Source: Devosia sp. ZB163 (lineage in GTDB: Bacteria; Pseudomonadota; Alphaproteobacteria; Rhizobiales; Devosiaceae). From it: a DNA stretch of 64,000 nucleotides. The DNA lies in the NCBI RefSeq assembly GCF_028613635.1, contig NZ_JAQRMY010000002.1:496001-560000 (forward strand), given 5' to 3'. Under the pieces are notes generated by a model. The model made no database searches and was not told the origin of the DNA. It worked only from the letters and a program-made list of their open reading frames with translations. Positions 6,887 through 23,991 of this stretch are shown here, in pieces (the first letter of the stretch is position 1; each line of letters starts with the position of its first letter). A program made the translations under genes and the position numbers.

Positions 6887-7807
6887 TCAGGAATTCGAGC
6901 GGGCCTTGGCCTGCCGGCGTGCCGCGTAAACGGTCAGCATGACGGCCGGCACGATGTAGGGGATCATCTGCATCAGCTCATTGGGCAGGCCCTTGGTCTG
7001 CATGGTGATGGCGACGGTTTCGGCGATGCCGAGCACCGCCGCAGCGGCGAACGTGCCCCAGGCCGTGCCCATGCCCATCACCTCGGCGGCGAGCGCGATG
7101 AAGCCACGTCCGGCGGTCATGTTCTGGGCGAACCAGCTGACATAGCCCATCGAGAGATATGCGCCCGCGGCGCCGCCGAATACGCCGGAGAGAGTCAGCG
7201 CATGGAACTGCACGCGATTGCGCGAGACACCGGCGGCCGCGGCCGCCTTGGGGTCGGAGCCGACGGCGCGGATGTGAAGGCCGAAGGGCGTCCGCGCCAG
7301 CATGATGGCGACCGTGGGGACGGCGAGGATCGCCACGTAGGTCAGCATGTGGTGGCCCGACAGCAGCGGGCCGAGCACCGGGATGCCGCCGAGCAAGGGG
7401 ATGTCGATATTGGGCAGCACGCCGCTCTGCAGCGCGCCCGACATCCCCTTGTCGCCGGTGGCAAGGAACAGGCCCAACGTCGTCGCGGCGAGGGCCGCCA
7501 TGTTGAGCGCAATACCTGTGATGATGAACTGGGTGCCGAGGCCATTGATGAACAAGGCCATCAGCGCGCCGAGCATGCCGCCGCCGATCAGCGCGGCGAA
7601 GAGGCCGAGGAACGGGTTGGCGGTAGCGGCGCTGACCAGCACGCCGATCAGCGCGCCCGAGAGCATGATGCCCTCCATGCCGATGTTGAGCACGCCCGCG
7701 CGATCGGAGATCAGCACGCCGAGGGCAGCGAGCAGCAGCGGCGTCATCACTCGCAGCACGGTGGCGACGACGGCGGGGTCGGCGATGGCCTGGAAGAACT
7801 CGATCAT
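6887..7807 (-). CDS. Nucleoside-type ABC transporter permease 2 (BPD_transp_2 family)
   Basis: Second membrane subunit of the BMP-type importer, 306 residues, starting MIEFFQAIADPAVV. Eight or more hydrophobic segments are visible, with the family motifs SDRAGVLNIGMEGIML near the N-terminus and GSDPKAAAAAGV in the cytoplasmic loop. This matches YufQ/NupQ-like permeases. The start overlaps the upstream permease's stop by 4 bp. Confidence 0.93.
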   Translation of the reverse strand: MIEFFQAIADPAVVATVLRVMTPLLLAALGVLISDRAGVLNIGMEGIMLSGALIGVLVSAATANPFLGLFAALIGGGMLGALMALFINGLGTQFIITGIALNMAALAATTLGLFLATGDKGMSGALQSGVLPNIDIPLLGGIPVLGPLLSGHHMLTYVAILAVPTVAIMLARTPFGLHIRAVGSDPKAAAAAGVSRNRVQFHALTLSGVFGGAAGAYLSMGYVSWFAQNMTAGRGFIALAAEVMGMGTAWGTFAAAAVLGIAETVAITMQTKGLPNELMQMIPYIVPAVMLTVYAARRQAKARSNS

Positions 7808-8871
7808 GCGCCGCGCTCCTGACCCTTGATGTCGCGGATGAGGCGCAGGAACGCCGGGTGGCGGAAGATGGCCGCGGCGGTGACGGCCAGCAGGATCGCG
7901 GCGGTGACCAGCCCGACGATCTCGGAGGGCACGTCGAGATTGCGCGCCAGCATGTCGCCGCCGACCTGGAGGTAAGCGAGGAACAGTGCGGCAGGGATGA
8001 CGAGGAACGGGTTCTCGCGGGCGAGGATGGCGACGGTGATGCCGGTCCAGCCGAGGCCGGGCAGGGCGGTCCACGAGAAGCGGCTGTAGAGCCCGAGCAC
8101 CTCGATGGCGCCGGCCATGCCGGCAATCAGACCGCCGGCGACCTGCGCCTGCATCAGCAGTTTCGACGAGGCGAGGCCGAGATGGCTGGCAAAGCCCGGG
8201 CTCGAGCCGACGATGCGGACATTGAGGCCGGAACGGGTGCCGTAGAGCCAGATGCCGCCGAGGATGCAGGCGACGAAGGCGATGATGACGCCGGTATGCA
8301 GGCGGGTGCCCTGCAGCAGCCGGTCGAGGGTGAAGTCGGCGGGCAGCTTGTAGGACATCAGCGCGCCGGCATTGGGATCGCGCAGCACGTAGTTGAGGAA
8401 GTAGACGCCGGCGAACAGGAAGGCGAAGTTCAGCACCAGCGAGTTGACCATCTCGGAGGCGCCGAAACGCACCCGGAGGTAGCCCGGCACGATACAGGCG
8501 AGCGAGCCGACGAGCGCGCCAACGAGGATGGCGGCAGGCGTCGCGACGAAGCCGGTGAGCGGGAGCAGGACGGCAGTCGCGGCGGCGGCGAGGCCACCGA
8601 GGAAGAAGCTGCCCTCGACGCCGAGGTTGAACATGCCGGCGCGAAAGATGATGGTCGCGGCAAGGCCGGTCATCATGGCGGGGGTCGCCGCTTCGAGGAT
8701 GTTGCCCATGTGGCGGATGGTGCCGAACGGGCCGAGGACGAACAGCCGGAGCACCTCGAACGGGTCCGGCTGCGACAGCGCCACCGGCACCAGTACGGCG
8801 AGGATCACCAGCACGATGACCAGTGCCGTGAGGGCGAATTCGGTGAGACCGGCGAGGATGGAGCGGGTCAT
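7804..8871 (-). CDS. Nucleoside-type ABC transporter permease 1 (BPD_transp_2 family)
   Basis: Membrane subunit of 355 residues, starting MTRSILAGLTEFALTAL. It carries FRAGMFNLGVEGSFFLGG, the permease-1 counterpart of the NxGxEG motif, and GSSPGFASHLGLASSKL, the cytoplasmic coupling loop. Family members (YufP/NupP) pair with the second permease to import purine nucleosides. Four-bp overlaps on both sides show a coupled operon. Sequence upstream of this start is open but lies over the ATPase gene in another frame. Confidence 0.93.
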   Translation of the reverse strand: MTRSILAGLTEFALTALVIVLVILAVLVPVALSQPDPFEVLRLFVLGPFGTIRHMGNILEAATPAMMTGLAATIIFRAGMFNLGVEGSFFLGGLAAAATAVLLPLTGFVATPAAILVGALVGSLACIVPGYLRVRFGASEMVNSLVLNFAFLFAGVYFLNYVLRDPNAGALMSYKLPADFTLDRLLQGTRLHTGVIIAFVACILGGIWLYGTRSGLNVRIVGSSPGFASHLGLASSKLLMQAQVAGGLIAGMAGAIEVLGLYSRFSWTALPGLGWTGITVAILARENPFLVIPAALFLAYLQVGGDMLARNLDVPSEIVGLVTAAILLAVTAAAIFRHPAFLRLIRDIKGQERGA

Positions 8872-10412
8872 GAGGCCTTCTCCAGACCGAGCATGTAGGG
8901 GCCGAGCGCGGCGGGCGTCAGGCCGGCGTGGTTGGCGAGGTCGGCGACGATCCGGCCGTTGAACAGCACCAGCACGCGATCGGCGAGGCGCAGCAGTTCG
9001 TCCAGATCGGCAGTGATCAGCAGCACCGCGGCGCCGTTGCGGGCGGCCTGGTCGATGCGGCCGTGCAAGAGGGCAGCGGCCGCGACGTCGACGCCGCGGG
9101 TCGGCTGGTCGGCGATCAGCAGTTTTGGCGAGCCGGCGAGTTCGCGCGCTGCGATCAGCTTCTGGGCGTTGCCGCCGGAGAGCGAGTCCAGCCGCTCGCC
9201 GGTGCCGCCGGCGCGCACCGCATAGTCGGCGATCATCTGCTGGACGCGCTGGCGGATGGCGCCGCGGCGAAGGAACGGGCCCCATTGCAGCGCCTTGTCG
9301 CCATCGGTGCCGGCAATGGCGTTGTCGGCCAGGCTGAGCGAGGCGGTGCCGCCCTGCGCGTAGCGATCGGCCGGGAGGTAGGCGAGGCCGGCCTTGCGCC
9401 AGGCGGGGGCGGCGGCTCGCGACATGTCGGCGCCGGAGAGGCGAATGCTGCCGGAGGCCGGATGCATCAGGCCGCTGAGCACCGAGACGAGGCCACGCTG
9501 GCCGCTGCCATCGACGCCGGCGATGCCGACGATTTCATCGGCGCGGATCGATAGCGAGATGTCCTCGATGCGGTCGGCGGGATCGTGCGAGCGGGTCGAG
9601 ACTTTCGCGAGCTCGAGCACGACCGGGGCAGAGGTGGTCTGGCGCTGGCGGCGTGGCACGTCGACGTCGCGGCCCATCACCATGCGGGTGATCTCGGCGT
9701 CATCGACCTCGGCAAGCGGCGTGGTGCCCACCACCTTGCCGGCGCGCAGCACGGTGACCGTCTCCGCCAGCGCGCGCACTTCGTGCAGCTTGTGGGAGAT
9801 GAACAGGATGGTCATGCCCGCGGCGCGCAGGTCGCGCAGGCGGTTGAACAGTTCTTCGATCTCGGGCGGAGACAGCACAGCGGTCGGCTCGTCGAGGATG
9901 AGCAGGCGCGTGTCGCGCGACAGTGCCTTGAGAATCTCGACCTTCTGCTGCGCTGCGACCGACAGGGTGTCGGTGCGCGCATCGGGGTCGACTGCGAGGT
10001 CGAAACGTTCACTCAGTTCGACGACCTGGCGGCGCGCCTTAGTACGATCGATGAAGATCGAGCTGCGCGGCTCGTGGCCGAGGATGATGTTCTCGGTGAC
10101 AGTGAGGATGGGGACCAGCGAGAAGTGCTGGTGCACCATGCCGATGCCGTGCTTGCCGGCGAAGTCTGGCGTCGCGGTATCGGCCGCGGCGCCATCGATG
10201 AAGACCTGTCCGGCGCTCGGGCTTTCGAGCCCGAACAGGATCTTCATCAGCGTGGATTTGCCGGCGCCGTTCTCGCCGCAGATGGCGTGGATCGATCCTC
10301 TCCGGATGTCGAAGGAGGCGTCCGTGAGGGCCACGGTGCCGTTCGGATAGGTCTTGCCGACCTGCCGGAACGAGACGATGGGGCCTTCGGCCATTTGCGG
10401 CGCGGTGCTCAT
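8868..10412 (-). CDS. Nucleoside-type ABC transporter ATPase, tandem nucleotide-binding domains
   Basis: A 514-residue protein with two ABC domains, as in sugar and nucleoside importers. Domain 1 has Walker A GENGAGKSTLMKILFG and Walker B LLILDEPTAVLSP. Its signature reads LSVAAQQKVEILKAL, with Ala-Ala where relatives usually have Gly-x. Domain 2 has a degenerate Walker A (GVDGSGQRGLV, no Lys) but an intact LSGGNAQKL signature and IADQPTRGVDV. One intact and one degenerate Walker A is normal for this subfamily. The stop overlaps the permease start by 4 bp. Confidence 0.94.
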   Translation of the reverse strand: MSTAPQMAEGPIVSFRQVGKTYPNGTVALTDASFDIRRGSIHAICGENGAGKSTLMKILFGLESPSAGQVFIDGAAADTATPDFAGKHGIGMVHQHFSLVPILTVTENIILGHEPRSSIFIDRTKARRQVVELSERFDLAVDPDARTDTLSVAAQQKVEILKALSRDTRLLILDEPTAVLSPPEIEELFNRLRDLRAAGMTILFISHKLHEVRALAETVTVLRAGKVVGTTPLAEVDDAEITRMVMGRDVDVPRRQRQTTSAPVVLELAKVSTRSHDPADRIEDISLSIRADEIVGIAGVDGSGQRGLVSVLSGLMHPASGSIRLSGADMSRAAAPAWRKAGLAYLPADRYAQGGTASLSLADNAIAGTDGDKALQWGPFLRRGAIRQRVQQMIADYAVRAGGTGERLDSLSGGNAQKLIAARELAGSPKLLIADQPTRGVDVAAAALLHGRIDQAARNGAAVLLITADLDELLRLADRVLVLFNGRIVADLANHAGLTPAALGPYMLGLEKAS

Positions 10413-10418
10413 CGGCGC

Positions 10419-11528
10419 TTACGGACGGACGGCGTCGCGGATGGCGCTGATCGCGGCGGTGTCCATGCCGAACGCGGTCGGCACGACGATCTCGCCCGCG
10501 GCGATCTTGGCCTTGGCGTCGGCGATGGCGGCCTTGGTCTCGGCGGACGCGAGCTTCTCGTAGTTGCCGGTCTCGACGATGCCGACGGCGCCTTCAGCAA
10601 GGCCGACGGTCTCGGCCGAACCGAAGGGGAGCTTACCCTCCTTGTAGAGGTCGTAGGCGCGGACGAGGCTGACGTCGACGTTCTTCAGCACCGAGCTCAC
10701 CACCTGGCTGGCGATCGCCGGATCGCTTTCGGCGAAGATCGCTTCCTGGTCGGAGTCGACGCCGAGCACGAACTTGCCGGTTTCCTTGGCGGCAGCCGCC
10801 TGGCCGAGGCCGGCCTGCGAGGCGGCGATGAAGCCGAGCGCAACGCCCGAGCGATACTGGGCGAGCCCGAGTTCCTTGCCCTTGGCGGCATCGGTGAACG
10901 AGCCGGCATAGGCGACCGACACCTTGACGTCGGGGGTGACCGACTGGGCGCCGGCAATGTAGCCGACGAGGAAGTCGTTGATCACGGGAATGTCCATGCC
11001 GCCGAGGAAGCCGAGCGCCGTGCCGGCGTCAGCGGGGAGGCCCGACTTCAGGAGGCCCGCGGCAAGGATGCCGCCGAGGTAGGAGCCTTCGTTCTGCTTG
11101 TACTGGACGGCGTAGACGTTGGGGTAGGCGCCGCCTTCGAAGGGCAGGCTCGCATCGAACAGGATGTACTTCTTGTCCGGGTACTGCTCGGCCACGGTGC
11201 CCAGCGTTTCGGACAGCGAGAAGGTGCCGCCGATGATCAGGTCCCAGTCCTGCTCGGACACTTCGAGCAGCGCCGGCTCCCAGCCGGTCGGATCGTCGCC
11301 GATTTCGAGCACCTTGGTCTCGACGTCGTCGCCGTACTTGGCCTTGATCTCCTCGATGCCCTTATTGGCCGAGTCGAAGAACGACTTGTCGCCAAGGGCG
11401 CCGTTGATCAGCAGCAGGACCTTGTCCTGGGCCAGCGCGCCGGCAGCGGTGGCGGCCAGCAGCGCCGTGGCGCTGACGAGCCCGAGGGCAGCACGGCGCA
11501 GGGCCACGCGGGTTGCGGATCTAGACAT
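10419..11528 (-). CDS. BMP family nucleoside-binding lipoprotein-like periplasmic protein
   Basis: Substrate-binding protein of the Bmp/PnrA family, 369 residues. Residues 1-34 form a long Sec signal (MSRSATRVALRRAALGLV...GALAQ). No lipobox cysteine is present, so it is probably soluble. The mature part has LLINGALGDKSFFDSANKGIEE, the GGTFSLSET region, QNEGSYLGGILAAG and VLGVDSDQEAIFAESDP, which line the nucleoside pocket in relatives. It is the first gene of a four- to six-gene leftward operon. AGGAG sits just before the ATG. The region upstream is shared with a LacI-type regulator. Confidence 0.92.
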   Translation of the reverse strand: MSRSATRVALRRAALGLVSATALLAATAAGALAQDKVLLLINGALGDKSFFDSANKGIEEIKAKYGDDVETKVLEIGDDPTGWEPALLEVSEQDWDLIIGGTFSLSETLGTVAEQYPDKKYILFDASLPFEGGAYPNVYAVQYKQNEGSYLGGILAAGLLKSGLPADAGTALGFLGGMDIPVINDFLVGYIAGAQSVTPDVKVSVAYAGSFTDAAKGKELGLAQYRSGVALGFIAASQAGLGQAAAAKETGKFVLGVDSDQEAIFAESDPAIASQVVSSVLKNVDVSLVRAYDLYKEGKLPFGSAETVGLAEGAVGIVETGNYEKLASAETKAAIADAKAKIAAGEIVVPTAFGMDTAAISAIRDAVRP

Positions 11529-12723: not shown

Positions 12724-13728
12724 CTAGTTGAGCGCTGCACCGACTTCCAGGGATGAGGCGCGGCCTTCCGAGACTGCGTGACAGGCAACGCGCGCCGGAC
12801 CGGCTTCGGCCAGCGTGGGCAGCTCCGACTTGCAGCGGTCGTTCGCCAGCGGGCAACGGGGGTGGAAAGGGCAGCCGGTGGGCGGATTGAGCGGCGATGG
12901 CAGTTCGCCCGTCAACTGCACGCGCTTTCCGCGCTGGTCCGGATCGGCAATGGGGGTCGCCGAGAGCAGGGCCTGCGTATAGGGGTGGCGCGGACGCGAG
13001 AAGAGCACGTCCGCTGGCGCCACTTCGACGGCATGACCCAGATACATCACCATCACATCGTCGGCGATGTGGCGAACCACGGCCAGGTTGTGGGAGATGA
13101 ACATCATGGTCAGGTTGAGCTGGCCCTTCAGCACGCGCAGCAGGTTCAGGATCTGCGCCTGCACCGAGACGTCCAGCGCCGAAGTCGGCTCATCGCAGAT
13201 CAGCACTTCGGGCTCGAGTATCAGGGCACGGGCAATGCCGATGCGCTGGCGCTGACCGCCGGAGAATTCGTGTGGATAGCGATCGGCCGCCTGCTGCGGC
13301 AGTCCCACCCGCTGCAGGATTTCGCCGACGGCCTTGCGTCGGCTCGCGGCATCGCCGATGCCGTGGATGACGAGGCCTTCGCCGATCGAGACGCCGACCG
13401 GAACGCGCGGGTCGAGGGAGGAGTAGGGGTCCTGGAAGACCATCTGGATCCGGCGGCTCGAGGCAAAGTCGATGCCTGAGGCGCCGCCGCTGATCGTCCT
13501 GCCATCGAAGACGACCTCGCCGCTGCTGGGCGGATGCAGTCCGATGACGATCCGGGCCAGCGTGGATTTCCCGCACCCGCTTTCACCGACCACACCGAGG
13601 GTGCGCCCCTTCTCGATGGTGAGATCGATGTCGCTGACCGCGCGGACGCGGCCGACGAGGCGCTGAAAGGTGCCGCCTCTAATCGCGAATTCCTTGTGGA
13701 TTCCGCGCAGTTCCAGCAGGGCGCTCAT
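12724..13728 (-). CDS. Peptide ABC transporter ATPase, DppF/OppF type (second transporter)
   Basis: ATPase of 334 residues, starting [14 protein letters not shown]. Motifs: Walker [17 protein letters not shown], signature [14 protein letters not shown], Walker B VLICDEPTSALD, and a C-terminal cysteine motif GCPFHPRCPLANDRC. It is the last gene of the SBP-B-C-D-F operon and overlaps the D-type ATPase by 4 bp. The open frame continues upstream of the ATG only because of high GC. Confidence 0.94.
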   Translation of the reverse strand: MSALLELRGIHKEFAIRGGTFQRLVGRVRAVSDIDLTIEKGRTLGVVGESGCGKSTLARIVIGLHPPSSGEVVFDGRTISGGASGIDFASSRRIQMVFQDPYSSLDPRVPVGVSIGEGLVIHGIGDAASRRKAVGEILQRVGLPQQAADRYPHEFSGGQRQRIGIARALILEPEVLICDEPTSALDVSVQAQILNLLRVLKGQLNLTMMFISHNLAVVRHIADDVMVMYLGHAVEVAPADVLFSRPRHPYTQALLSATPIADPDQRGKRVQLTGELPSPLNPPTGCPFHPRCPLANDRCKSELPTLAEAGPARVACHAVSEGRASSLEVGAALN

Positions 13729-14741
13729 GCCAGTTCTGCCTCTTTTCGTGTTTCGCCGGCAGATGGTGCCGTCAGCCAGCACCGGCAGTTGTGTCCCCCC
13801 GCCACCGAGAGCAGATCCGGCACCGTCGTCGTGCAGCGCGGCTCGTTGGCTTCGCGCCGGGCGGCGCAGCGCGGGGCGAACAGGCAGCCCTGCGGCAGAT
13901 TGGTCAACTGCGGGACCCGCCCCTCGATCACCTCGAGCATCTCGCGGCTGGCGTCCATGCTCGGAACCGAGCGCAGCAAGGCCTGGGTGTAGGGGTGCTT
14001 GGGCGACTTGAACAGCGTCCGCACGTCGGCGTACTCGACGATCTGGCCGGCATACATCACCGCCACGTGGTCGGCCATCTCGGCGACGACGCCGAGATCG
14101 TGCGTGATCAGGATGATGGCGGTGCCGTAGTCGCTCTGCAGCTGGCGCATCAGGTCCAGGATCTGGGCCTGGATGGTGACGTCGAGTGCGGTCGTCGGCT
14201 CGTCGGCGATCAGGACCTGCGGTTCGCAGGCCAGCGCCATGGCGATCATGATGCGCTGGGCCATGCCGCCGGACATTTCGTGCGGATAGGCCTTCATGCG
14301 TCGGGCCGGATCCGGGATACCCACCGCGGCCAGCAGCCGCGTGGCAGCCGCCTCGGCCTGCTTTGCATCCATGCCCTTGTGCAGGCGATAGACCTCGGAG
14401 ATCTGCTTGCCGACGGTATGGACGGGATTGAGCGAGGAGGAGGGGTCCTGGAAGATCATCGACAGGCGATTGCCGCGCACCTTGCTGATCTCGGCGGGCG
14501 TCATCCTGCGCAGGTCGACGCCTCCGAGCAGCACTTCGCCACCGACCACCTTGCCCGGGTAGGGAACGAGATCGGCAGCGCTCAGCGCGGTGATCGACTT
14601 GCCGCAGCCGCTCTCACCGACGATGCACAGGGTTTCCCTCGCATTGAGGTCGAAGCTGACGCCGTCCACGGCCCGGGCAATGCCCGAGCGCGTGGTGAAG
14701 ACGGTGCTGAGGTCGCGGACTTGAAAGATTGGCTCGCTCAT
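13725..14741 (-). CDS. Peptide ABC transporter ATPase, DppD/OppD type (second transporter)
   Basis: ATPase of 338 residues, starting [15 protein letters not shown]. Walker [14 protein letters not shown], signature [14 protein letters not shown], Walker [13 protein letters not shown]. The C-terminal motif [15 protein letters not shown] keeps two of the usual cysteines, with more in GGHNCRC further on. It follows the permease gene by 10 bp. Confidence 0.94.
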
Positions 14742-14751
14742 GGCGCTTGCC

Positions 14752-15705
14752 TCAGCTGTTCAGGCGCGGATCGAGCGCGTCGCGCAGTCCGTCGCCAAGC
14801 AGGTTGAAGCCGAGCACCGTGATGACGATCGCGATGCCGGGGAAGAACACGAGGTGGGGCGAAGAGAACATCTGGTCCTTTTCGGTGCCCAGCATCGTGC
14901 CCCATTCCGGTGTCGGCGGCTGCGCGCCGAGCCCGAGGAAGCTCAGGCCGGCGGCTTCAAGAATGCCTCCCGCCACACCCATTGTCGCAAGGACGACGAT
15001 CGGCGTCAGGGCATTGGGCAACACCCGGGTGAACAGGATCCGCCACTTGCTGCCGCCCAGAACGCGGCTGGCGGCCACGAAGTCCTGGGACTTCACCGAC
15101 AGCACGCTGGCGCGGGTGACGCGGGCATAGCCCGGTACCGACACCACGGAAATGGCGAGCAGGGCGTTGACTATACCCGGCCCGAGCACGGCCACGATGG
15201 CGATGGCGAGGAGGAGGGCAGGGAAACCCAGGATCACGTCCATGCAGCGCATGATCAGGTTGTCGGTCCAGCCACCGAAATAGCCGGCGATCGCGCCGAG
15301 AAACACGCCCACGATCAGCGCGATGGTGACGGTGACGACACCGATCATCAGGCTGATCTGCGCCCCGTAGACCAGTCTCGAGAACACGTCGCGCGAGTTG
15401 CCGTCGATGCCCATGATGTGCTGCGGGCGCGATACGTCGCAGCCGAGCATGTGCACGCAGGGAGGGTCACGGCGCTTGACGTCCTCGATCCCGATCAGAA
15501 CCTGGTTCGGATCGTAGGGGGCAATGAGCGGGGCAAAGATTGCCACCAGCACCATGAAGCCGATCAGGAACATGCCGACCTGGCCCGACCGCTTGCGCAG
15601 CAGTCGTTTCAACGTCTGTTTCCACAGCGGCACCGGATCGCCGAGCAGGCCATCCTCCATTACGTTCGCGGCCGCCTGGGCGCTGGCGATGTTTAGGCTC
15701 GTCAT
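14752..15705 (-). CDS. Peptide ABC transporter permease, DppC type, with a paired-cysteine periplasmic loop
   Basis: Inner-membrane permease, 317 residues. TM1 is near residues 43-63. The following periplasmic loop holds Cys83 and Cys89 (PPCVHMLGCDVS), which could form a disulfide. The conserved GRD of the family is here SRD (GIDGNSRDVFSRLVYG). The EAA loop (AASRVLGGSKWRILFTRVLPN) and C-terminal [11 protein letters not shown] are normal. Members of this family rarely carry cysteines in this loop; here they go with cysteine pairs in the B-type permease and the binding protein of the same operon. Confidence 0.93.
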   Translation of the reverse strand: MTSLNIASAQAAANVMEDGLLGDPVPLWKQTLKRLLRKRSGQVGMFLIGFMVLVAIFAPLIAPYDPNQVLIGIEDVKRRDPPCVHMLGCDVSRPQHIMGIDGNSRDVFSRLVYGAQISLMIGVVTVTIALIVGVFLGAIAGYFGGWTDNLIMRCMDVILGFPALLLAIAIVAVLGPGIVNALLAISVVSVPGYARVTRASVLSVKSQDFVAASRVLGGSKWRILFTRVLPNALTPIVVLATMGVAGGILEAAGLSFLGLGAQPPTPEWGTMLGTEKDQMFSSPHLVFFPGIAIVITVLGFNLLGDGLRDALDPRLNS

Positions 15706-15713
15706 ATCAGGTC

Positions 15714-16793
15714 CTATTGAGGCCGAACGCGTGGGTCGAGGTAGGTGTAGGAGAGGTCCACGATCAGGTTCACCACGACGTAGATCGTGGCGATCATCAC
15801 CGTGAACGCCTGGACGATGGGGTAATCGCGGGCGAAGATCGCCTCGACCAGCATGCGTCCCACCCCGGCGAGACCGAACACGGTCTCGGTGAGGACCGCC
15901 CCGCTGAGCAGGGCGCCCATCTGCAGTCCCAGGATCGTCACCACCGGCAGCATGGCGTTGCCCAGGGCGTGCCGCCGCACCACCTTGTTGTCCGGCACCC
16001 CCTTGGCGCGGGCCGTGCGGACATAGTCGCGCCCCAGCACGTCGAGCAGGGATGAGCGGGTCATGCGGGCGATCACGGCCATCGGAATGGTGGCCACGGC
16101 AAGCGCCGGCAGGATCATGTGCCGAACCGCGTCGGTGAAGACTACCCAGTTCTGCGTGATCAGCGCGTTGAAGATGTAGAAGTTGGAGATGAACTCGGCG
16201 AACTGGGCACCGAACGTGCCCTTGGTCAGTTCCCAGCCCCAGACCTGGTAGAACGGCACGGAGCTCAAACCGGCGGTGAGCCGGCCGGACGGCGGCAGCC
16301 AGAGGGGCGTACCCTTCAGCATGACGCCGAAGACATAGGCCATCATCAGGCCGAGCCAGAAGATCGGCATGGCGATACCGACATTGGCGAGCGCCATCGT
16401 GCCAACGTCAGCGGCGGTGTTGTGCCGCCGCGCCGCGAAAATGCCGATGGAGATACCGGCAACGGCGGCGACGATCAGCGCCAGGATCGCCAGTTCCATG
16501 GTCATCGGCAGGCGCTCGATGATGATCTGCGTCACCGGCCGGGAGAAGCGGATGGAGTTGCCGAAATTACCCTGGGCGATATCGCGCAGGTAATAGAGGA
16601 ACTGCACCGGAATGGGTTGGTCGAGGCCGAAATTGCGCACGAACTCGGCGCAAGTCGCATCGCTGACCTTGTCGCCCAGCATGGCTTTGCACGGGTCGCC
16701 GGGAATGAGGCGGGCGAGGGAGAAGGTGACTACCAGGATGCCAAACAAGACTGGAATGGCGCTGAGTAGCCGTTTGATCGCGTAACCAAGCAT
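15714..16793 (-). CDS. Peptide ABC transporter permease, DppB type, with loop insertion and cysteine pair
   Basis: Permease of 359 residues, about 40-50 longer than typical. Right after TM1 the periplasmic loop has IPGDPCKAMLGDKVSDATC, with Cys35 and Cys48 spaced for a disulfide. A second extra segment (about residues 180-230, ending FIFNALITQNWVVFTDAV-like) sits in the central periplasmic loop. The EAA loop (TARAKGVPDNKVVRRHALGNAMLP) and the terminal YTYLDPRVRPQ are conserved. It follows the binding-protein gene across a strong hairpin. Confidence 0.93.
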   Translation of the reverse strand: MLGYAIKRLLSAIPVLFGILVVTFSLARLIPGDPCKAMLGDKVSDATCAEFVRNFGLDQPIPVQFLYYLRDIAQGNFGNSIRFSRPVTQIIIERLPMTMELAILALIVAAVAGISIGIFAARRHNTAADVGTMALANVGIAMPIFWLGLMMAYVFGVMLKGTPLWLPPSGRLTAGLSSVPFYQVWGWELTKGTFGAQFAEFISNFYIFNALITQNWVVFTDAVRHMILPALAVATIPMAVIARMTRSSLLDVLGRDYVRTARAKGVPDNKVVRRHALGNAMLPVVTILGLQMGALLSGAVLTETVFGLAGVGRMLVEAIFARDYPIVQAFTVMIATIYVVVNLIVDLSYTYLDPRVRPQ

Positions 16794-16864: not shown

Positions 16865-18478
16865 TTACTGGGCGGGCGCGTTCATCAGGCCCCAGAGGCT
16901 CGAGAAGTAGTCGAACGCACCGGTGTTGCCGACGTGCGACGGATTGCTCACGTCAATGCCGGCAGCGTAGGAGGCCACGACGTCGTTGGCGTCGAAGGCC
17001 GAACCGTCGGTGAACTTCACGCCTTCGCGCAGGTGGCAGGTCCACTCGGTCGCGTCGGCATTCGCCTCGCAGCCCGTTGCCAGGCCGCCCACGACCTCGC
17101 CGCTGTCCTGAGCGTAGTCGAGCAGCGTCTCGGTGATCTGCGTGCAGACCAGGGTCGACTCGCCGTCGCTCTCGTCACCGCAGTAGAGGCTGATCGGCTC
17201 AGCGTTCTGCATGACGATCATGGTGTCCTTGCCCGGGTCCACAGTGCTGAACTGCTTGGCGCCGAACGGACGGTAGTTCGCGTTCTTGACGTAGCTGCGG
17301 GCCGCCGAACCTGCTGCCGCGTGGGAGATCGGCACCATCGGCACGAATTCGCGGATGGCGTTGTTGGCCTGCTCGTAGACCGGCTTGGCTTCATCGACAT
17401 TGGCGATCGAGGAGCCCTTGGTCAGCGCCTCGTGGATCTCCGGGATGGAAGCGCCAAACTGCTTGGTGTCCTTGCCGAAGTGGTAGTCGAGGAAGTTGGT
17501 GATGTGCGGATAGTCCGCGCCCCAACCGAGCAGGTAGAAGCCGTCGAGGTTGCCGGCGCTGGCCTGGCCGATGAACTCGCCCGACTCCATCGGAGACACT
17601 TCGGCGTCGATGCCGATGGCCTTCAGCTGCGACTGGATTTCCACTGCCATGGTGCTGGGTTCCGGCAGGTAGGTGCGGAACACGTCACGGTAGTAGATCT
17701 TGGTCTTGAAGCCTTCCGGGAAACCGGCTTCGGCCAGGAGCGCCTTGGCGGCGACGGGATCGAACCCGTACCAGGCCTCGCCCGCACAGCCGTTCGGGAT
17801 CGTGCACGGCGTGAAGTGGGACGCAACTTCCGACCCATCGGGGAAGTAGTTGTCGACGATGCGCTGGCGGTCGATGCCCATCGCAATGGCCTGACGCACC
17901 TTGACGTTGTTGAACGGCTCGAAGGTGTTGGTCATGCCCAGATACAGGGTATTCGGGCCCGACTGCGGCAGGAACTGCAGGTCGGGGTCGTTCTTGACGG
18001 CGTCGAAGTCGTCGGGGCTCAGGGTGCTGATCTGGTCGACCGTGCCCGAGCGCAGTTCGTTCAGCTGGCCGGCACCGGACGTGCTCCAGCGGAACACCAG
18101 CGTCTCGTAGGGCGACTTGTTGCCCCAGTAGCCATCGTTGCGCTTGAGGATGATCGAGTCGCCGCGATTCCAGGCATCGAGCTTGAAGGGACCGGTCCCG
18201 ATCGGGTTGGTAAGGATGTCCTTGGTCGTGCCGACGGTGGCGAGGTGCTCGGACGGTTGAATGCCGAACGAGACGAAGGCGGCCTTCGCCTCGAATGCCG
18301 GATCCGCTGCGCACATCGTGAAGGTGACGGTGTGCTCGTCGGTGGCCCGGATCGCGCTGATCTTGCCGCCGTAGTTGCAGTCGGGGGCAACGAGAGAACT
18401 TCCCTCGAAGCTCAGCGCTGCGCCAGTGGACATCGTTGACACCGCGAGTGCGGCGCCAAGAAATACCAATCGTTTCAC
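16865..18478 (-). CDS. Circularly permuted family 5 peptide-binding protein of an ABC transporter
   Basis: Secreted binding protein, 537 residues, signal peptide about 1-23. The family 5 landmarks are all present but in rotated order. The mature protein begins with what is normally the middle (GGKISAIRATDEHTVTFT, residues 38-54). It then runs through GTGPFKL (94-100), VRQAIAMGIDR (194-204) and the usual C-terminal VPMVPISHA (379-387). After DPGKDTMIVMQNAEPIS (414-430), normally the mature N-terminus, come TEWTCHLREGVKFTDG (477-492) and FDANDVVASY (495-504), normally near residue 100. The cut is in the loop after DVV.S and the join links the old C- and N-termini. Eight cysteines (34, 56, 225, 231, 433, 445, 470, 481) look arranged for disulfides. 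It heads the transporter operon. The family is sure, the permutation is read directly from motif order, the ligand is unknown. Confidence 0.9.
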   Translation of the reverse strand: MKRLVFLGAALAVSTMSTGAALSFEGSSLVAPDCNYGGKISAIRATDEHTVTFTMCAADPAFEAKAAFVSFGIQPSEHLATVGTTKDILTNPIGTGPFKLDAWNRGDSIILKRNDGYWGNKSPYETLVFRWSTSGAGQLNELRSGTVDQISTLSPDDFDAVKNDPDLQFLPQSGPNTLYLGMTNTFEPFNNVKVRQAIAMGIDRQRIVDNYFPDGSEVASHFTPCTIPNGCAGEAWYGFDPVAAKALLAEAGFPEGFKTKIYYRDVFRTYLPEPSTMAVEIQSQLKAIGIDAEVSPMESGEFIGQASAGNLDGFYLLGWGADYPHITNFLDYHFGKDTKQFGASIPEIHEALTKGSSIANVDEAKPVYEQANNAIREFVPMVPISHAAAGSAARSYVKNANYRPFGAKQFSTVDPGKDTMIVMQNAEPISLYCGDESDGESTLVCTQITETLLDYAQDSGEVVGGLATGCEANADATEWTCHLREGVKFTDGSAFDANDVVASYAAGIDVSNPSHVGNTGAFDYFSSLWGLMNAPAQ

Positions 18479-18867
18479 CAGTAGGGCTCCTCTGTCCTGG
18501 TTGTTGTAGTCGAAAAAGTGCCAGCCTACGCAGGTCGAGCCTGCGTATGAGTCTCCGGGTAATCTAGCTAAGCTTCCGGAGGGGCCGTCAGCTTTATTGT
18601 TGTTTTGCTTGCAATCGGCGTCGGTCGCAAAAAAAGACTATCAAAGTCCGGTTTTGGACACCTGTGACCCCATGTTTGTCAAATGTCAGACAAAGGCATG
18701 TCGCGAGGCCTGTCAAGGCGGCGTCGTAGCGAAAGAACAGCATCCGATGCGATTCACGCCTCCGACAGAGGCAGTCTTGAGTATGGATGGTGCCTCCCTG
18801 GGGCATGTGCCATACGCCCCCGTAGCGGGATCGGAGAGAGTGATCCCGAATCACAGAAGCGGTGCCT
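18479..18867. promoter_or_regulatory. Divergent promoter region with inverted repeat TTTGTC-N8-GACAAA
   Basis: This 389-bp gap separates the leftward permuted-SBP operon from the rightward peptidase genes. No convincing coding sequence was found on either strand. A perfect inverted repeat, TTTGTC at 18675-18680 and GACAAA at 18689-18694, sits midway. The stretch around 18590-18660 is locally A+T-rich (TTATTGTTGTTTTGC, CAAAAAAAGAC), consistent with promoters. The repeat resembles GntR-type half-sites, but no such regulator is adjacent. Confidence 0.4.
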
Positions 18868-20259
18868 ATGTCAGACCTCGAACCTGTCCTCACCCGTGCC
18901 GACGCGAACCTTGAATCGAGCCTCGAAACCCTATTCGAGCTCGTACGGGTCCCCTCGATATCGACCGACCCAGCCCACGCCGCCGACTGTCGCAAAGCGG
19001 CGCAACTGCTCGCCGATTACCTGACGAGCCTGGGATTTGATGCCTCGGTGCGCGATACGATCGGCCATCCTATGGTGGTGGCGCATCACGAGGGCGTCCG
19101 CCCCGACAGTCCGCACTTCCTGTTCTACGGTCACTACGACGTCCAGCCCGTCGATCCGCTGCACCTGTGGACCCATCCGCCGTTCGAGCCGGCGATCCGC
19201 ATCGGCGCCAAGGGCCAGAAGATCATTTCCGGTCGCGGCACCTGCGACGACAAGGCGCAGCTGCTGACCTTCGTGGAGGCCGTGCGAGCCTACAAGGAAG
19301 TGCGCGGGAGCCTGCCGGCCCGCATCTCGATCATCTTTGAAGGCGAGGAAGAATGCGGCTCGCCGTCCGCCCGCCCTTTCCTTGAAGCCAACAAGGAAGA
19401 GCTCAAGGCCGACTACGTGCTCGTTTGCGACACGGGCATGTGGGACGATGACACCCCGTCGATCTGCGCCGGCCTGCGCGGCCTCGTGGGCGAAGAGATC
19501 AAGATCTACGCCGCCAGCCACGACCTGCATTCGGGTGGCTATGGCGGCATCGCCGCCAATCCGCTGCATATCATCAGCGACATTCTCGCCGGTCTCCACG
19601 ACAAGGACGGCACCGTTACGCTGCCGGGCTTCTATGATGGCGTCCGCGAAACGCCGGCCGACCTGAAAAAGGTCTGGGACGACCTCGAAAAGTCGATGCC
19701 GCACATGCTCGATCAGGTGGGTCTCTCCATCCCGGTAGGCGAGAAGAACCGTTCGATGCTCGAGCTCAACTGGGCTCGTCCGACCGCCGAAGTGAACGGC
19801 ATCAGCGGCGGCTATGCCGGCGAAGGCTTCAAGACCGTGATCCCGGCCGAAGCCACTGCCAAGGTCTCGTTCCGGCTGGTGCACGATCAGGATCCGCTGA
19901 AAATCCGCGACAGCTTCCGCGCCTATGTCCGCTCGAAGGTGCCGGCCGACTGCCGCGTGGAGTTCGGCGACCATGGCGCCGCGCCGGCCGTCCAGCTGCC
20001 GTTCGACGCGCCGATCCTCGACAAGGCCAAGCAGGCGCTGCTCGGTGAATGGTCGAACCCGGCCATCGTCACCGGCGGTGGCGGCTCGATCCCGATCGTC
20101 GGCGATTTCGGCACCATCCTCGGCATGGATGCGCTGCTGGTCGGCTGGGGCAATTCCGACGACCGCGGCCACTCGCCGAACGAGAAGTACAATCTGAGCT
20201 CGTTCCAGAAGGGCATCCGTGCCTGGGTGCGGATTCTCGACGCCATTACCACGCCGTAA
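18868..20259 (+). CDS. M20 family dipeptidase/carboxypeptidase
   Basis: Zinc peptidase of 463 residues that would cut short peptides in the cytoplasm. Metal-site motifs are GHYDVQPVDP (His89, Asp91), GRGTCDDKAQ (Asp127/128), FEGEEECGS (residues 158-164) and VCDTGMWDDD. The dimerisation domain starts near GLVGEEIKIYAASHDLHSGGYGG. C-terminal GGGGSIPIV and the final His of DRGHSPNEK complete the site. I chose the ATG at 18868; a GTG two codons upstream is possible. No signal peptide. It lies beside a peptide importer and an M24 peptidase, so it probably digests imported peptides. Confidence 0.92.
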   Translation: MSDLEPVLTRADANLESSLETLFELVRVPSISTDPAHAADCRKAAQLLADYLTSLGFDASVRDTIGHPMVVAHHEGVRPDSPHFLFYGHYDVQPVDPLHLWTHPPFEPAIRIGAKGQKIISGRGTCDDKAQLLTFVEAVRAYKEVRGSLPARISIIFEGEEECGSPSARPFLEANKEELKADYVLVCDTGMWDDDTPSICAGLRGLVGEEIKIYAASHDLHSGGYGGIAANPLHIISDILAGLHDKDGTVTLPGFYDGVRETPADLKKVWDDLEKSMPHMLDQVGLSIPVGEKNRSMLELNWARPTAEVNGISGGYAGEGFKTVIPAEATAKVSFRLVHDQDPLKIRDSFRAYVRSKVPADCRVEFGDHGAAPAVQLPFDAPILDKAKQALLGEWSNPAIVTGGGGSIPIVGDFGTILGMDALLVGWGNSDDRGHSPNEKYNLSSFQKGIRAWVRILDAITTP

Positions 20260-20411: not shown

Positions 20412-21512
20412 GTGACTGTGGATACCAAGGCCAGGCTCGCCGGACTGCGCGAGCGGATGAAGGCACAGGACGTCGATCTCGTTGCCCTCGCCCCGAGCCC
20501 GCATATGGACTGGCTCGTCGGGTTCCATCCGCTGCTGTGCGAGCGCCCGTGCCTGCTGCTCGTGGGGCCGGAGCGCGAAGCGTTCCTGATGCCGGCGCTC
20601 AACGCCGACGGCTCCCGCGAAGAGACCGAAATCCCGTTCCGCGTCTGGGCCGACGATGTTGGCCCGAAGGCCGCGTTCCTCGAAGCCCTCGCCGATGTCG
20701 GCGGCACGACCGCGCGCCATGTCGCGTTCGACGAGACGATGCGCATCGACTTTGCCATGCTGCTGCTCGACGCTCTGCCCGAGGCGAAGCGCAGCTTCAC
20801 GGACGACACGCTGAGCTACCTGCGCATGCGCAAGGACGCACGCGAATACGCTGCCCTCAAGAAGAACGCCCTCATCGCCGACAAGGCGATGCAGAAGGGT
20901 TTTGCGGCGATGCGTCCCGGCATGACCGAAAAGGAACTCGCCGCGATCATCTTCGATGAGTTCAGCGCGCAGGGCGCCAAGCCGGAATTCGCCGTCATCG
21001 CCGCTGGCCCCAACGGTGCCTTCCCGCATCATCACACCGGCGACCGGCAGCTGGCGGAAGGCGATGCCGTCGTCATGGATATCGGTGGCCGCATCGCCGG
21101 CTTCCCGAGCGACATCACCCGCATGGCCGTGGTCGGCCGTCCGCCCGACGGATACGGCCAGATCCACACCATCGTTGAACGCGCCGTGCAGGCTGCGCTG
21201 AAGGCGGCCAAGCCGGGCGCGCTGGCCCGCGATGTCGATGAGGCGGCCCGCAAGGTCATCACCGATGCCGGCTACGGCGAATACTTCGTCCACCGCACCG
21301 GCCACGGCATGGGCATTGGCGGGCACGAGCCGCCCTATATCACGGCGACATCCGACACGGTGCTCGCCGAGGGCATGGTGTTCTCGATCGAACCCGGCAT
21401 CTACATTCCCGGCCGCTTCGGCATCCGCCTCGAGGACATCGTGATCCTGCGGGAGGACGGGCCGGAGATTCTCTCCAGCCTGTCGCGCGACATGCATGTG
21501 GCGGCCGACTGA
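20412..21512 (+). CDS. M24 family metallopeptidase (Xaa-Pro dipeptidase-like)
   Basis: Pita-bread-fold peptidase, 366 residues, starting with GTG after the Shine-Dalgarno AAGGGGGG. The N-terminal creatinase-like domain spans about residues 1-130 (MDWLVGFHPLLCERPCLLLVG). The catalytic domain has the full metal set: DIGGRIAGFPSDITR (two Asp), HRTGHGMGIGGHE (His), FSIEPGIY (Glu) and RLEDIV (Glu). The second, substrate-gating His is in FPHHHTGDR. Family members remove N-terminal residues before proline. It likely works with the M20 enzyme on peptides brought in by the divergent transporter. Confidence 0.92.
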   Translation: MTVDTKARLAGLRERMKAQDVDLVALAPSPHMDWLVGFHPLLCERPCLLLVGPEREAFLMPALNADGSREETEIPFRVWADDVGPKAAFLEALADVGGTTARHVAFDETMRIDFAMLLLDALPEAKRSFTDDTLSYLRMRKDAREYAALKKNALIADKAMQKGFAAMRPGMTEKELAAIIFDEFSAQGAKPEFAVIAAGPNGAFPHHHTGDRQLAEGDAVVMDIGGRIAGFPSDITRMAVVGRPPDGYGQIHTIVERAVQAALKAAKPGALARDVDEAARKVITDAGYGEYFVHRTGHGMGIGGHEPPYITATSDTVLAEGMVFSIEPGIYIPGRFGIRLEDIVILREDGPEILSSLSRDMHVAAD

Positions 21513-21624: not shown

Positions 21625-23991
21625 CTACTGGCGGGCCATGGCGGTGCGGGCCAACGCGGCTTCCTGTTCCTTCGTATCGACGATCAGCTTGCCGGTCAGA
21701 TCGACCGTCACCTGCTTGATGGTGCCGGTGAAGGCGAAGGGCGGATCGTACAGCGCGGAGACCGATGAGCCGCCATTGCGGCCGACAAAGACGCCGCTGC
21801 CGATACCGAGCGCCAGCGGCACGGTGTAGGGCAGCTTCATCTCGCCGACGAGCTTGTGCGCGATGTAGAGCCGGCCGGTCCCCGCAGCCCCCTTGCCGCG
21901 GGCGAGATCGGGTTTGCCGGTGACCTCGAACTCGTAGCGGAGCTCGACCTTGCCCACCGGCACGTCAGTGTCCGAGACGAGGTGGAATTCCTCCGCGCCC
22001 ACGTAGTTGTGGACATAGTGGAGCTTTCCATCCTTCACGAACAGCGTGTAGCCGCCGACATTGCCGCCGTGGCAGATCAGTACGCCCTCGGCGCCGCCCT
22101 TGGGGATCTCCACCTCGGCGGTGAGGCTGTGCGAACGGTTGAGCAGCTTGGCCGCGACATTCTCCGGCACCATCTGCGTCCCGGGATAGTAGACATAGGT
22201 GGCCCGGTCCTTGGTGAGCTGCGGCCGCGGATCGGCGAAGCGCATGGTGCCGCGGCTGTCGAGCGGCAGCACCTTGTACTTGCCCGCCTCGACGTACCAG
22301 GTGGCGATCATCTCGATCAGCTTGGCGCGGTTGGTCTCGGCAAGATTGTTGGTTTCGGTGGGGTCCTTGCTGAGGTCGTAGAGTTCCCAACCCGTCGCAT
22401 CGAGCTCGCGGAGCTTGTCCTCGGTCAGCACCATCTGGCCGAAGCCGAAGCCGGACTCGATGAACGAGGTGCCGGGCACCGGGCACACCGCCCGCCAGCC
22501 GTCGTGATAGATCGAGCGGTGCCCGAACATCTCGAAATACTGGGTCTTGTGCCTGTCCTCGGCCTTCGGGTCGGAGAAGGTCTCGGCAAAGCTGATGCCC
22601 TCGATCGGCGACTGGGTGACGCCGCGGACTGTCGTCGGCGGGTCGAGCTTCAGCGCGTCGTAGACCGTCGGAACCATGTCAATGGCGTGGGTGAACTGCG
22701 TCCGCAGCCCGTTCTTCCTGATGCCGTGCGGCCAGTGGACGATGAACGGGTCGGAAACCCCGCCGCGATAGGTCTCACGCTTCCAGCGGCGGAACGGCGT
22801 ATTGCCGGCATGCGTCCAGCCCCAGGCGTAGTGATTGAAGTACTTCGGCCCGCCCAGGTCGTCGAGCGCCGCGAGGTTCTGCTTCAGGTCGTCCGGGACG
22901 TTGTTGAAGAACTTGTTCTCGTTGATCGAGCCTGTCGGGCCGCCTTCCGCACTCGCGCCGTTATCCGAGATGAACATGATCAGCGTGTTGTCGAGCTCGC
23001 CGAGCTTTTCGAGGTAGTCGATGATCCGGCCGACCTGATGGTCCATGTGCGAGCAGAAGCCAGCGTACACCTCCATCATCCGCGCGTAGAGCTTGCGCTC
23101 TTCGGCGGGGAGCTTGCCCCAGTCCTGCACATCCGGATCATGGCGTGAGAGCACCGCATCCTTGGGCATGATGCCGAGTTTCTTCTGCCTGGCGAAGGTG
23201 CGCTCGCGCAGCGCGTCCCAGCCATCGTCGAACTGGCCCTTGTACTTGTCGGCCCACTCCTTGGGCACGTGGTGCGGAGCGTGGTTCGCGCCGGTGCAGA
23301 AGTACATGAAGAACGGCTTGTCCGGCGCCACCTGCTTGAGGTCGCCGATGAACTCGATGGCCTTGTCCGCCAGGTCCTCGGAGAGATGGTAGCCCTCCTC
23401 GGGTGTCTTCGGCGGCTCGACCTGGTGGTTGTCGTAGACGAGGTCCGGATAATACTGGTGCGTATCGCCGCCGAGGAACCCGTAGTAGCGATCGAATCCG
23501 CGCCCCAGGGGCCAGCGATCATACGGTCCGGCCGCGCTGATCTGCTCGGCCGGCGTCAGGTGCCACTTGCCGAGTGCGACGGTCGCATAGCCGTGCTGTT
23601 GCAGCCCCTCGGAGAGGAAGCCGTTCTCGAACGGAATTGCGCCGTTGGAGCCCGGATAGCCGGTTGATCCTTCGGTGATGCAGGCCATCGCGTTGGAGTG
23701 GTGGTTGCGACCGGTGATCATGCACGAGCGCGACGGCGAGCAGAGCGCCGTGGTGTGCATGTTGGTGAACAGCAGCCCGTTCTTGGCCAGCCGGTCGATG
23801 TTCGGTGTCTCGATCGGGCCGCCATAGCAGCCGAGCTGACCGAAGCCGGTGTCGTCGATGACGATGAACATGACGTTGGGCGAACCGGCCGCGGCCCGCT
23901 CCGGCGCCGGCCAGGCCGGCTGGGATTCATCGATCGTGCGGCCCATGCGGCCGGGGAAGGTAGTGCCGGGTTTGTACTCTGTGAGTGCCAT
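21625..23991 (-). CDS. Type I sulfatase (arylsulfatase)
   Basis: Formylglycine-dependent sulfatase, 788 residues. The signature CSPSRSCMITGR places the cysteine that becomes formylglycine at residue 84. The metal-binding pair is at IVIDDTGFGQLG (Asp46-47), with further ligands in GKWHLTPAEQ, ANHAPHHVP and ISDNGASAEGG. A C-terminal beta-rich extension (about residues 600-788) resembles that of large arylsulfatases. No signal peptide is evident, so it may act in the cytoplasm or use another export route. A sulfatase-maturing enzyme is not in the window. It is monocistronic. Confidence 0.93.
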   Translation of the reverse strand: MALTEYKPGTTFPGRMGRTIDESQPAWPAPERAAAGSPNVMFIVIDDTGFGQLGCYGGPIETPNIDRLAKNGLLFTNMHTTALCSPSRSCMITGRNHHSNAMACITEGSTGYPGSNGAIPFENGFLSEGLQQHGYATVALGKWHLTPAEQISAAGPYDRWPLGRGFDRYYGFLGGDTHQYYPDLVYDNHQVEPPKTPEEGYHLSEDLADKAIEFIGDLKQVAPDKPFFMYFCTGANHAPHHVPKEWADKYKGQFDDGWDALRERTFARQKKLGIMPKDAVLSRHDPDVQDWGKLPAEERKLYARMMEVYAGFCSHMDHQVGRIIDYLEKLGELDNTLIMFISDNGASAEGGPTGSINENKFFNNVPDDLKQNLAALDDLGGPKYFNHYAWGWTHAGNTPFRRWKRETYRGGVSDPFIVHWPHGIRKNGLRTQFTHAIDMVPTVYDALKLDPPTTVRGVTQSPIEGISFAETFSDPKAEDRHKTQYFEMFGHRSIYHDGWRAVCPVPGTSFIESGFGFGQMVLTEDKLRELDATGWELYDLSKDPTETNNLAETNRAKLIEMIATWYVEAGKYKVLPLDSRGTMRFADPRPQLTKDRATYVYYPGTQMVPENVAAKLLNRSHSLTAEVEIPKGGAEGVLICHGGNVGGYTLFVKDGKLHYVHNYVGAEEFHLVSDTDVPVGKVELRYEFEVTGKPDLARGKGAAGTGRLYIAHKLVGEMKLPYTVPLALGIGSGVFVGRNGGSSVSALYDPPFAFTGTIKQVTVDLTGKLIVDTKEQEAALARTAMARQ

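Follow-up and report, generated by a model that had tools for sequence, protein, structure and literature searches.

The window analysed here, a stretch of 64,000 nucleotides from Devosia sp. ZB163, carries at 16865..18478 on the minus strand a gene encoding a family 5 substrate-binding protein (SBP) of 537 amino acids whose chain, as indicated by Pfam, DppA alignment, HMM and AlphaFold2 analyses, is circularly permuted. The frame, opened by a GTG preceded by AGGAG, runs to its stop without interruption, as had been stated in the sequence-only reading that preceded this analysis. The first ~23 residues (18410..18478) have by eye the appearance of a signal peptide and include residues 1–20, the sole stretch of the full AlphaFold2 model with a pLDDT <50; they are followed by the block that in family 5 proteins of normal order makes up the middle and the C-terminus (residues 37–413, 17240..18370, corresponding to HMM positions 143–515), by the join between the old C-terminus and the old N-terminus (residues 413–417, 17228..17242, as defined by the ends of two HMM matches) and finally by the block found at the N-terminus in those proteins (residues 417–528, 16895..17230, HMM positions 25–130), all on the minus strand and both blocks being identified also by the DppA alignment.

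Further downstream, and on the same strand, lie the genes for a DppB-like permease (15714..16793; Pfam BPD_transp_1, DppB alignment and Cys counts), in which C35 and C48 bracket D41-K42, a DppC-like permease (14752..15705; Pfam, alignment and Cys counts), whose C83 and C89 are located in the stretch before a conserved GxDxxxRDVxSR, and DppD-like (13725..14741) and DppF-like (12724..13782) ATPases, both having Pfam ABC_tran and oligo_HPY; SBP, two permeases and two oligo_HPY ATPases thus constitute a single gene run of Dpp-type layout. Divergently oriented, on the plus strand, are an M20 peptidase gene (18862..20259) and an M24 peptidase gene (20412..21512; Pfam Creatinase_N and Peptidase_M24), the latter perhaps encoding an Xaa-Pro peptidase and being adjoined by the gene of a 788-aa sulfatase (21625–23991). 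Genes of a Bmp/PnrA-type ABC importer (7804–11528) are found just downstream of the permuted operon.

The only Pfam family detected in the protein is SBP_bac_5 (PF00496), with 266.6 bits against a gathering cut-off of 32.4; instead of a single collinear match of normal order, there are two stretches in permuted order, the best of which relates residues 37–339 to profile positions 62–366 of 368. Likewise, a phmmer comparison with PDB sequences aligns residues 40–413 with positions 124–504 of E. coli DppA (1dpe) and residues 450–528 with positions 34–118. At E≤0.001 the protein is matched by 93 distinct PDB sequences, the best being those of DppA-type and haem-binding proteins, and none of the best 60 PDB sequence stretches extends beyond residue 414. 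Taken with the DppA alignment, this pattern indicates that the normal N-terminal block is present and is placed last; indeed, neither Pfam nor phmmer against the PDB detects a second copy of this block in the protein. The genome yields 26 matches to the SBP, of which only the 16865–18478 gene covers query residues 1–537. Two other SBPs of the window had been proposed as controls for the motif order: that at 44547–46115 is indeed a full normal-order protein, giving a single Pfam stretch (88–444 to profile 2–366), whereas the product of 1–568 is truncated at the window edge to a mere N-terminal fragment, the surviving part of which (68–177 to profile 2–99) is in normal order. As to the motifs themselves, VPMVPISHA occupies residues 379–387 as previously read, but NAEPISL begins at residue 425 and not at 417.

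The order was assessed with an HMM made from normal-order rows found by similarity to the window protein; of these 35 rows, 34 are distinct and 14 come from the same genome. In its native order the SBP gives two matches (315.2 and 78.5 bits), which meet the profile in swapped order, whereas after swapping its halves it gives a single match of 403.3 bits spanning HMM positions 26–515; furthermore, when the chain is opened at the join or at any of 23 further points spaced 20 residues apart, the join scores best of the 24, points 400 and 420 being next. For a single alignment the expectation that the swapped sequence would score far better is borne out, the score rising from 315 to 403 bits; the summed HMMER scores do not bear it out, being nearly equal at 395.6 for the native and 403.6 for the swapped order, since in the former the two matches are added together. 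The HMM match ends narrow the join, formerly put at residues 411–417, to approximately 413–417. On the other hand, the cut cannot be placed just after DVV.S (499–503), since homology to the old N-terminus continues to approximately residues 525–528, i.e., some 25 residues further. From the ends of the HMM pieces, the new chain ends sit in the stretch corresponding to DppA ~119–123; here the distance between fixed flanks has a median of 56 residues (range 51–99) in 64 permuted rows, 63 of them distinct, all related, some near-identical and 19 derived from whole-protein searches, against 37 residues (23–46) in the 35 normal rows, so that the new ends carry ~19 extra residues, C34 among them.

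That this order could be an artefact of assembly or reading has a practically negligible probability in view of 44 named full-length permuted homologs, almost all from separate records and organisms and two (L021 and L022) on chromosome records, and of the purifying selection acting on the moved block (dN 0.048 and dS 0.476 against L018 around the join, ~residues 380–460), and the earlier opinion that no assembly accident is involved can be upheld.

AlphaFold2, run on the native order with 44 permuted sequences and without templates, yields a model with pLDDT 89.9 and pTM 0.87; a Foldseek search with this model gives 171 matches in the PDB at E≤0.001. The top four rows (5f1q twice, 3m8u and 1dpp) are DppA/GbpA (glutathione-binding) structures having 26–28% identity, aligned over 387–392 columns with an rmsd of 2.2–2.6 and a TM score of 0.65–0.67 on the query, the remaining part of the model being omitted by this sequence-order alignment, as would be expected of a permuted chain. 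Lower rows reach an rmsd of 8.7 and are in part open structures, such as 1dpe (6.5), which is described as open in the accessible portion of PMC12136057. The best 50 rows consist of peptide, nickel, opine and similar binding proteins and contain no cluster B sugar-binding fold. The claim of a circular permutation is thus supported by the DppA alignment, by the HMM rotation and by the predicted fold of the native order. The moved block reaches a pLDDT of only 47.5 when predicted alone (AlphaFold2, 18 rows), whereas within the full model its ten-residue blocks have values of 76–98; it therefore looks integrated rather than a separate domain, and this behavior, together with the lack of another copy of the N-terminal block, makes it very improbable that the C-terminal block was gained as an additional domain, leaving the place of the missing N-terminal segment unfilled.

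The scan of genome contigs for homologs, based on the patterns A[PG]DC[ND]YGG (which includes C34) and EH[TE][VA][TV]FTM, returned 48 loci comprising the 44 full-length permuted genes, one partial match (L059) and three normal-order genes (L062–L064). As to how widespread the permuted form is, which a search for relatives had been expected to show, record titles assign 31 homologs to Chloroflexota, two to Promineifilum without an assigned phylum, four to Actinomycetota and seven to Pseudomonadota, these last being all alphaproteobacterial (Devosia, Martelella and Agrobacterium vitis), and the nearest permuted relative of the window SBP (87%) comes from a Devosia MAG. In genome samples in which at most three candidates per genome were scored, a permuted SBP was found in 57 of 400 Chloroflexota (54 strong matches, including a partial one, and the divergent G796, G850 and G830) and in 6 of 396 Actinomycetota, counts that include the centre genomes (that of L024 and Ilumatobacter, respectively) picked for having the gene; among 385 genomes drawn for the class of the source organism, only its own genome has it. 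Among near relatives of the source genome the permuted SBP is present in 3 of 61, its own included.

The trees discussed here are quick ones, having SH-aLRT support alone and several long branches flagged. In that of the 64 permuted rows, the alphaproteobacterial sequences and the window SBP fall into a single clade, with support 99, that sits among sequences of Chloroflexota and Actinomycetota, a placement that makes a horizontal transfer likely. A second tree joins 28 permuted rows, their halves swapped, to the 35 normal rows, which had been found through their resemblance to the window SBP, and groups all 28 in a single clade with support 100. The simplest reading of these trees would be a single permutation and a single transfer into Rhizobiales. 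The permutation would have arisen once, probably in or near Chloroflexota, either through a duplication with truncation or through recombination within a Dpp operon, the permuted cassette being transferred to Rhizobiales at a later time; the family seems to have reached some soil- and plant-associated bacteria along with its membrane channel genes. A mobile-element origin of the window copy was considered and rejected, there being no plasmid match at E≤1e-60 and no viral match.

The origin suggested by the sequence-only reading, a duplication with subsequent loss of the outer halves, is plausible. Two candidate tandem intermediates were discarded: in G522, an open frame of 1052 residues containing a single TAG turned out to be a plain SBP of normal order, and in G744 the long frame (933 aa) consists of a permuted SBP preceded by upstream open frame. 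It is also conceivable, if rather less probable, that the protein is a chimera of permuted layout whose old N-terminal block was acquired by recombination from another family 5 gene. In favor of this possibility are the lack of any tandem or fused intermediate among the loci inspected, the fact that some permuted SBP genes (L034, L048 and L121–L123) adjoin normal-order SBP genes and a precedent in the accessible text of PMC4990184, where a recombination origin is raised by the authors for their own permuted protein, TpMglB-2. At two of these loci the permease genes are followed by a family 5 SBP of normal order (L034:11342–13489 and L048:11495–13543), oriented like the permuted one, a single gene run thus holding two binding proteins of differing layout.

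The permuted SBP is tightly linked to its own type of permease. A DppB-like gene occurs at 37 of the 44 named permuted loci, mostly directly behind the SBP, the permease pair being on the opposite strand at L047, L049 and L051; of the seven loci lacking it, two lie on contigs ≤3.3 kb, and the other five (L040, L041, L045, L046 and L065) show no DppB-like gene in the flanks fetched, which include sequence on both sides. At the Thermoflexus loci L040, L041, L046 and L065 the fetched flanks contain neither DppB- nor DppC-like genes. Within the same 400 Chloroflexota genomes, a strongly matching permuted SBP is found in 54, a closely matching permease in 53 and both in 52, the genomes being related and no probability being attached to this co-occurrence; the limit for a closely matching permease was drawn between G695 (3.4e-109) and G677 (1.4e-96, 52% identity), the latter having a normal-order SBP. 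The three mismatches concern genes at contig ends (G784 and G826) and a partial SBP match (G679). In the permease tree, 37 rows from permuted loci form one clade (99) against 30 others, a result that is partly circular since the labels rested on an identity threshold of ≥52%. An M20 peptidase gene is near the permuted SBP at six of the seven named alphaproteobacterial loci, being ~2 kb away in A. vitis, and was not found near it at the other 37 named loci.

As to the ligand, the accessible portion of PMC12136057 reports that R383 and D436 of DppA (R355 and D408 without signal peptide, positions verified in 1dpe) grip the dipeptide at its two charged ends, that a double charge-reversal mutant loses dipeptide binding and that E41 and R42 of DppB form salt bridges with R383 and D436. 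The window SBP has both elements of this Dpp-type clamp, as R268 and D322. The Arg is kept in 60 and the Asp in 61 of the 64 permuted rows, the divergent L121–L123 having neither residue and L128 lacking the Arg. Normal relatives also frequently have them (19/35 and 25/35, respectively), so that the clamp speaks less for the present specificity than for descent from a Dpp-like ancestor. The clamp-less genes stand back to back with a normal-order SBP gene (L121:2321–6117, L122:619–4403, L123:1598–5228), an arrangement suggesting that these divergent SBPs may have lost their transport role. Their lack of both residues would also fit a permuted fold that binds longer peptides, opines or peptide-like metabolites or that serves mainly as a receptor, as would the presence of nickel, opine, haem and longer-peptide binders among the PDB matches of the fold and the score obtained with the best curated family, the DppA equivalog NF043070, which at 186.5 is far below the NCBI cut-off of 1005. 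Nevertheless, the conservation of the clamp in nearly all other permuted members, the Dpp-like permeases and ATPases of the operon and the peptidase genes adjoining the SBP at most alphaproteobacterial loci leave such ligands in a minority position, and the best reading of the sequence is that the window gene would encode the SBP of a working permuted dipeptide importer.

Beyond the permutation itself, the new features are pairs of Cys residues that co-occur in the SBP and a pair that surrounds the scoop loop of the permease. In 45 permuted rows, window included, C34/C56 and C433/C445 are complete in all 45, the ubiquity of C34 being partly built in by the scan pattern; C225/C231 occur as a pair in 23 rows and are missing together in the other 22, and for C470/C481 these numbers are 30 and 15. 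In the 64 rows the corresponding figures are 63 for C34/C56 (L134, having C56 alone, is the sole breach of the pair rule), 63 present and one absent for C433/C445, 40 and 24 for C225/C231 and 45 and 19 for C470/C481; by eye, even the divergent L121 has all four pairs. By contrast, the eight equivalent positions are occupied by Cys in 0, 0, 0, 0, 1, 4, 0 and 0 of the 35 normal rows, one of which has C433 and C445 together and none of which has any of the other three pairs, 31 having a gap at C34.

D41-K42 of the window DppB-like permease align with the scoop-loop residues E41-R42 of E. coli DppB. In 88 DppB-like permeases encoded near permuted SBPs, 78 of them distinct in sequence and some coming from loci fetched twice, an acidic residue occupies position 41 in 85 and K, R or H position 42 in all 88; C35 is present in 88 and C48 in 86, L121 and L131 having their second Cys at 51; the L121 permease, which follows a normal SBP, was counted since a divergent permuted SBP lies within 2.6 kb. 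None of 22 comparison permeases has C35 or C48, and in the DppC-like partner C83 and C89 are found in 45/45 cases against 0/10 in the comparison set. The premise that the Cys-bracketed scoop is exclusive to permuted systems had to be abandoned, since the permeases beside the normal-order SBPs of L121, L152 and L154 have the 35/51 pair; in two more distant permeases, those of the normal-order loci L142 and L143, two Cys occur elsewhere in the scoop stretch, and at L146–L150 and L153 this stretch contains no Cys. The association of the pair with permuted systems is strong but non-exclusive. Judging from co-occurrence in related rows, the Cys pairs of SBP and permease may be disulfides mechanically tied to the permutation.

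The new N-terminal end is presumably located in domain II of the DppA/OppA fold. Ahead of it, a regular expression detects a lipobox-like motif in 30 of the 44 named permuted relatives, so that in many members the lipid anchor would leave from the new end; the motif is absent from the seven alphaproteobacterial sequences and from seven others, two of which (L052 and L053) are fused to other sequence. L052:6690–9578 is a single open frame joining a family 1 type SBP (SBP_bac_1) to the permuted family 5 SBP, and in L053 the apparent tail of another protein precedes the latter. These lipobox-like or plain signal sequences of most homologs and the signal-like N-terminus of the window protein, judged by eye, are in line with the earlier suggestion that the permuted order is exported. 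A bolder proposal, to be regarded as tentative and on balance doubtful, is that these systems represent a distinct class of peptide importers in which the permutation, the disulfide-pinned arm and scoop, the DppC Cys pair and, in most members, the moved lipid anchor changed together; if this were true, the permutation would alter the tethering and docking of the SBP and would not be just a neutral rearrangement.

Computation shows the permuted order, a confident predicted fold, a single clade, lasting conservation and the linkage to the permease. The best explanation, in our opinion a quite probable one, is an exported permuted SBP of a Dpp-type importer, having the origin envisaged above and operating as follows. 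The normal termini would be joined and new ends opened at approximately DppA residue 120; the protein would close on a dipeptide like an ordinary Venus flytrap, R268 binding the carboxylate and D322 the amino group, and would hand it to the DppB/C-like channel, with the scoop loop D41/K42 entering the cleft and displacing the peptide, after which the neighboring M20 and M24 peptidases would split the dipeptides. Probable disulfides would pin the new N-terminal arm (C34–C56) and the old N-terminal segment (C433–C445), and the permease pair would probably stiffen the scoop hairpin.

With its single permuted clade, its closely related normal-order systems having an operon of similar type and its likely inter-phylum transfer, the family offers a testable system in which to ask whether the way a binding protein docks and is tethered depends on where its chain ends lie, and whether the partner permeases must change along with it. 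Moreover, plain family matching conceals the rearranged chain, a circumstance relevant to models and to sensor design based on the SBP fold. A literature search on permutation, judged mainly by titles and abstract openings and including few subscription papers, found, among the papers listed, no natural permuted family 5 SBP; the sole natural permutation of a transporter binding protein encountered in it was the aforementioned TpMglB-2, a sugar binder.

The system that the window operon most resembles is E. coli DppABCDF, with which it shares two permeases and two ATPases; its SBP resembles DppA (1dpp, 1dpe) in sequence and predicted fold over the part that aligns and has the equivalents of R355 and D408. 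The differences lie in the permuted chain and in the extra Cys pairs of SBP, DppB-like and DppC-like proteins. Normal-order Dpp-like systems of Chloroflexota and Actinomycetota (such as L119, L124, L125 and L146) likewise have an SBP gene followed by DppB- and DppC-like genes, with identities to the window proteins of 29–33% for the SBPs and ~39–52% for the permeases, but the order of their chain is normal. TpMglB-2 (Tp0684) of Treponema pallidum is described, in the accessible part of PMC4990184, as a glucose-binding protein whose chain is circularly permuted (“Type Ic / Cluster Bc”), with its old N-terminal strands near the C-terminus, most of whose relatives are thought by the authors to be tethered. 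Both proteins represent natural circular permutations in the binding protein of an ABC importer, TpMglB-2 being a cluster B sugar binder, whereas for the window SBP Pfam shows SBP_bac_5 alone.
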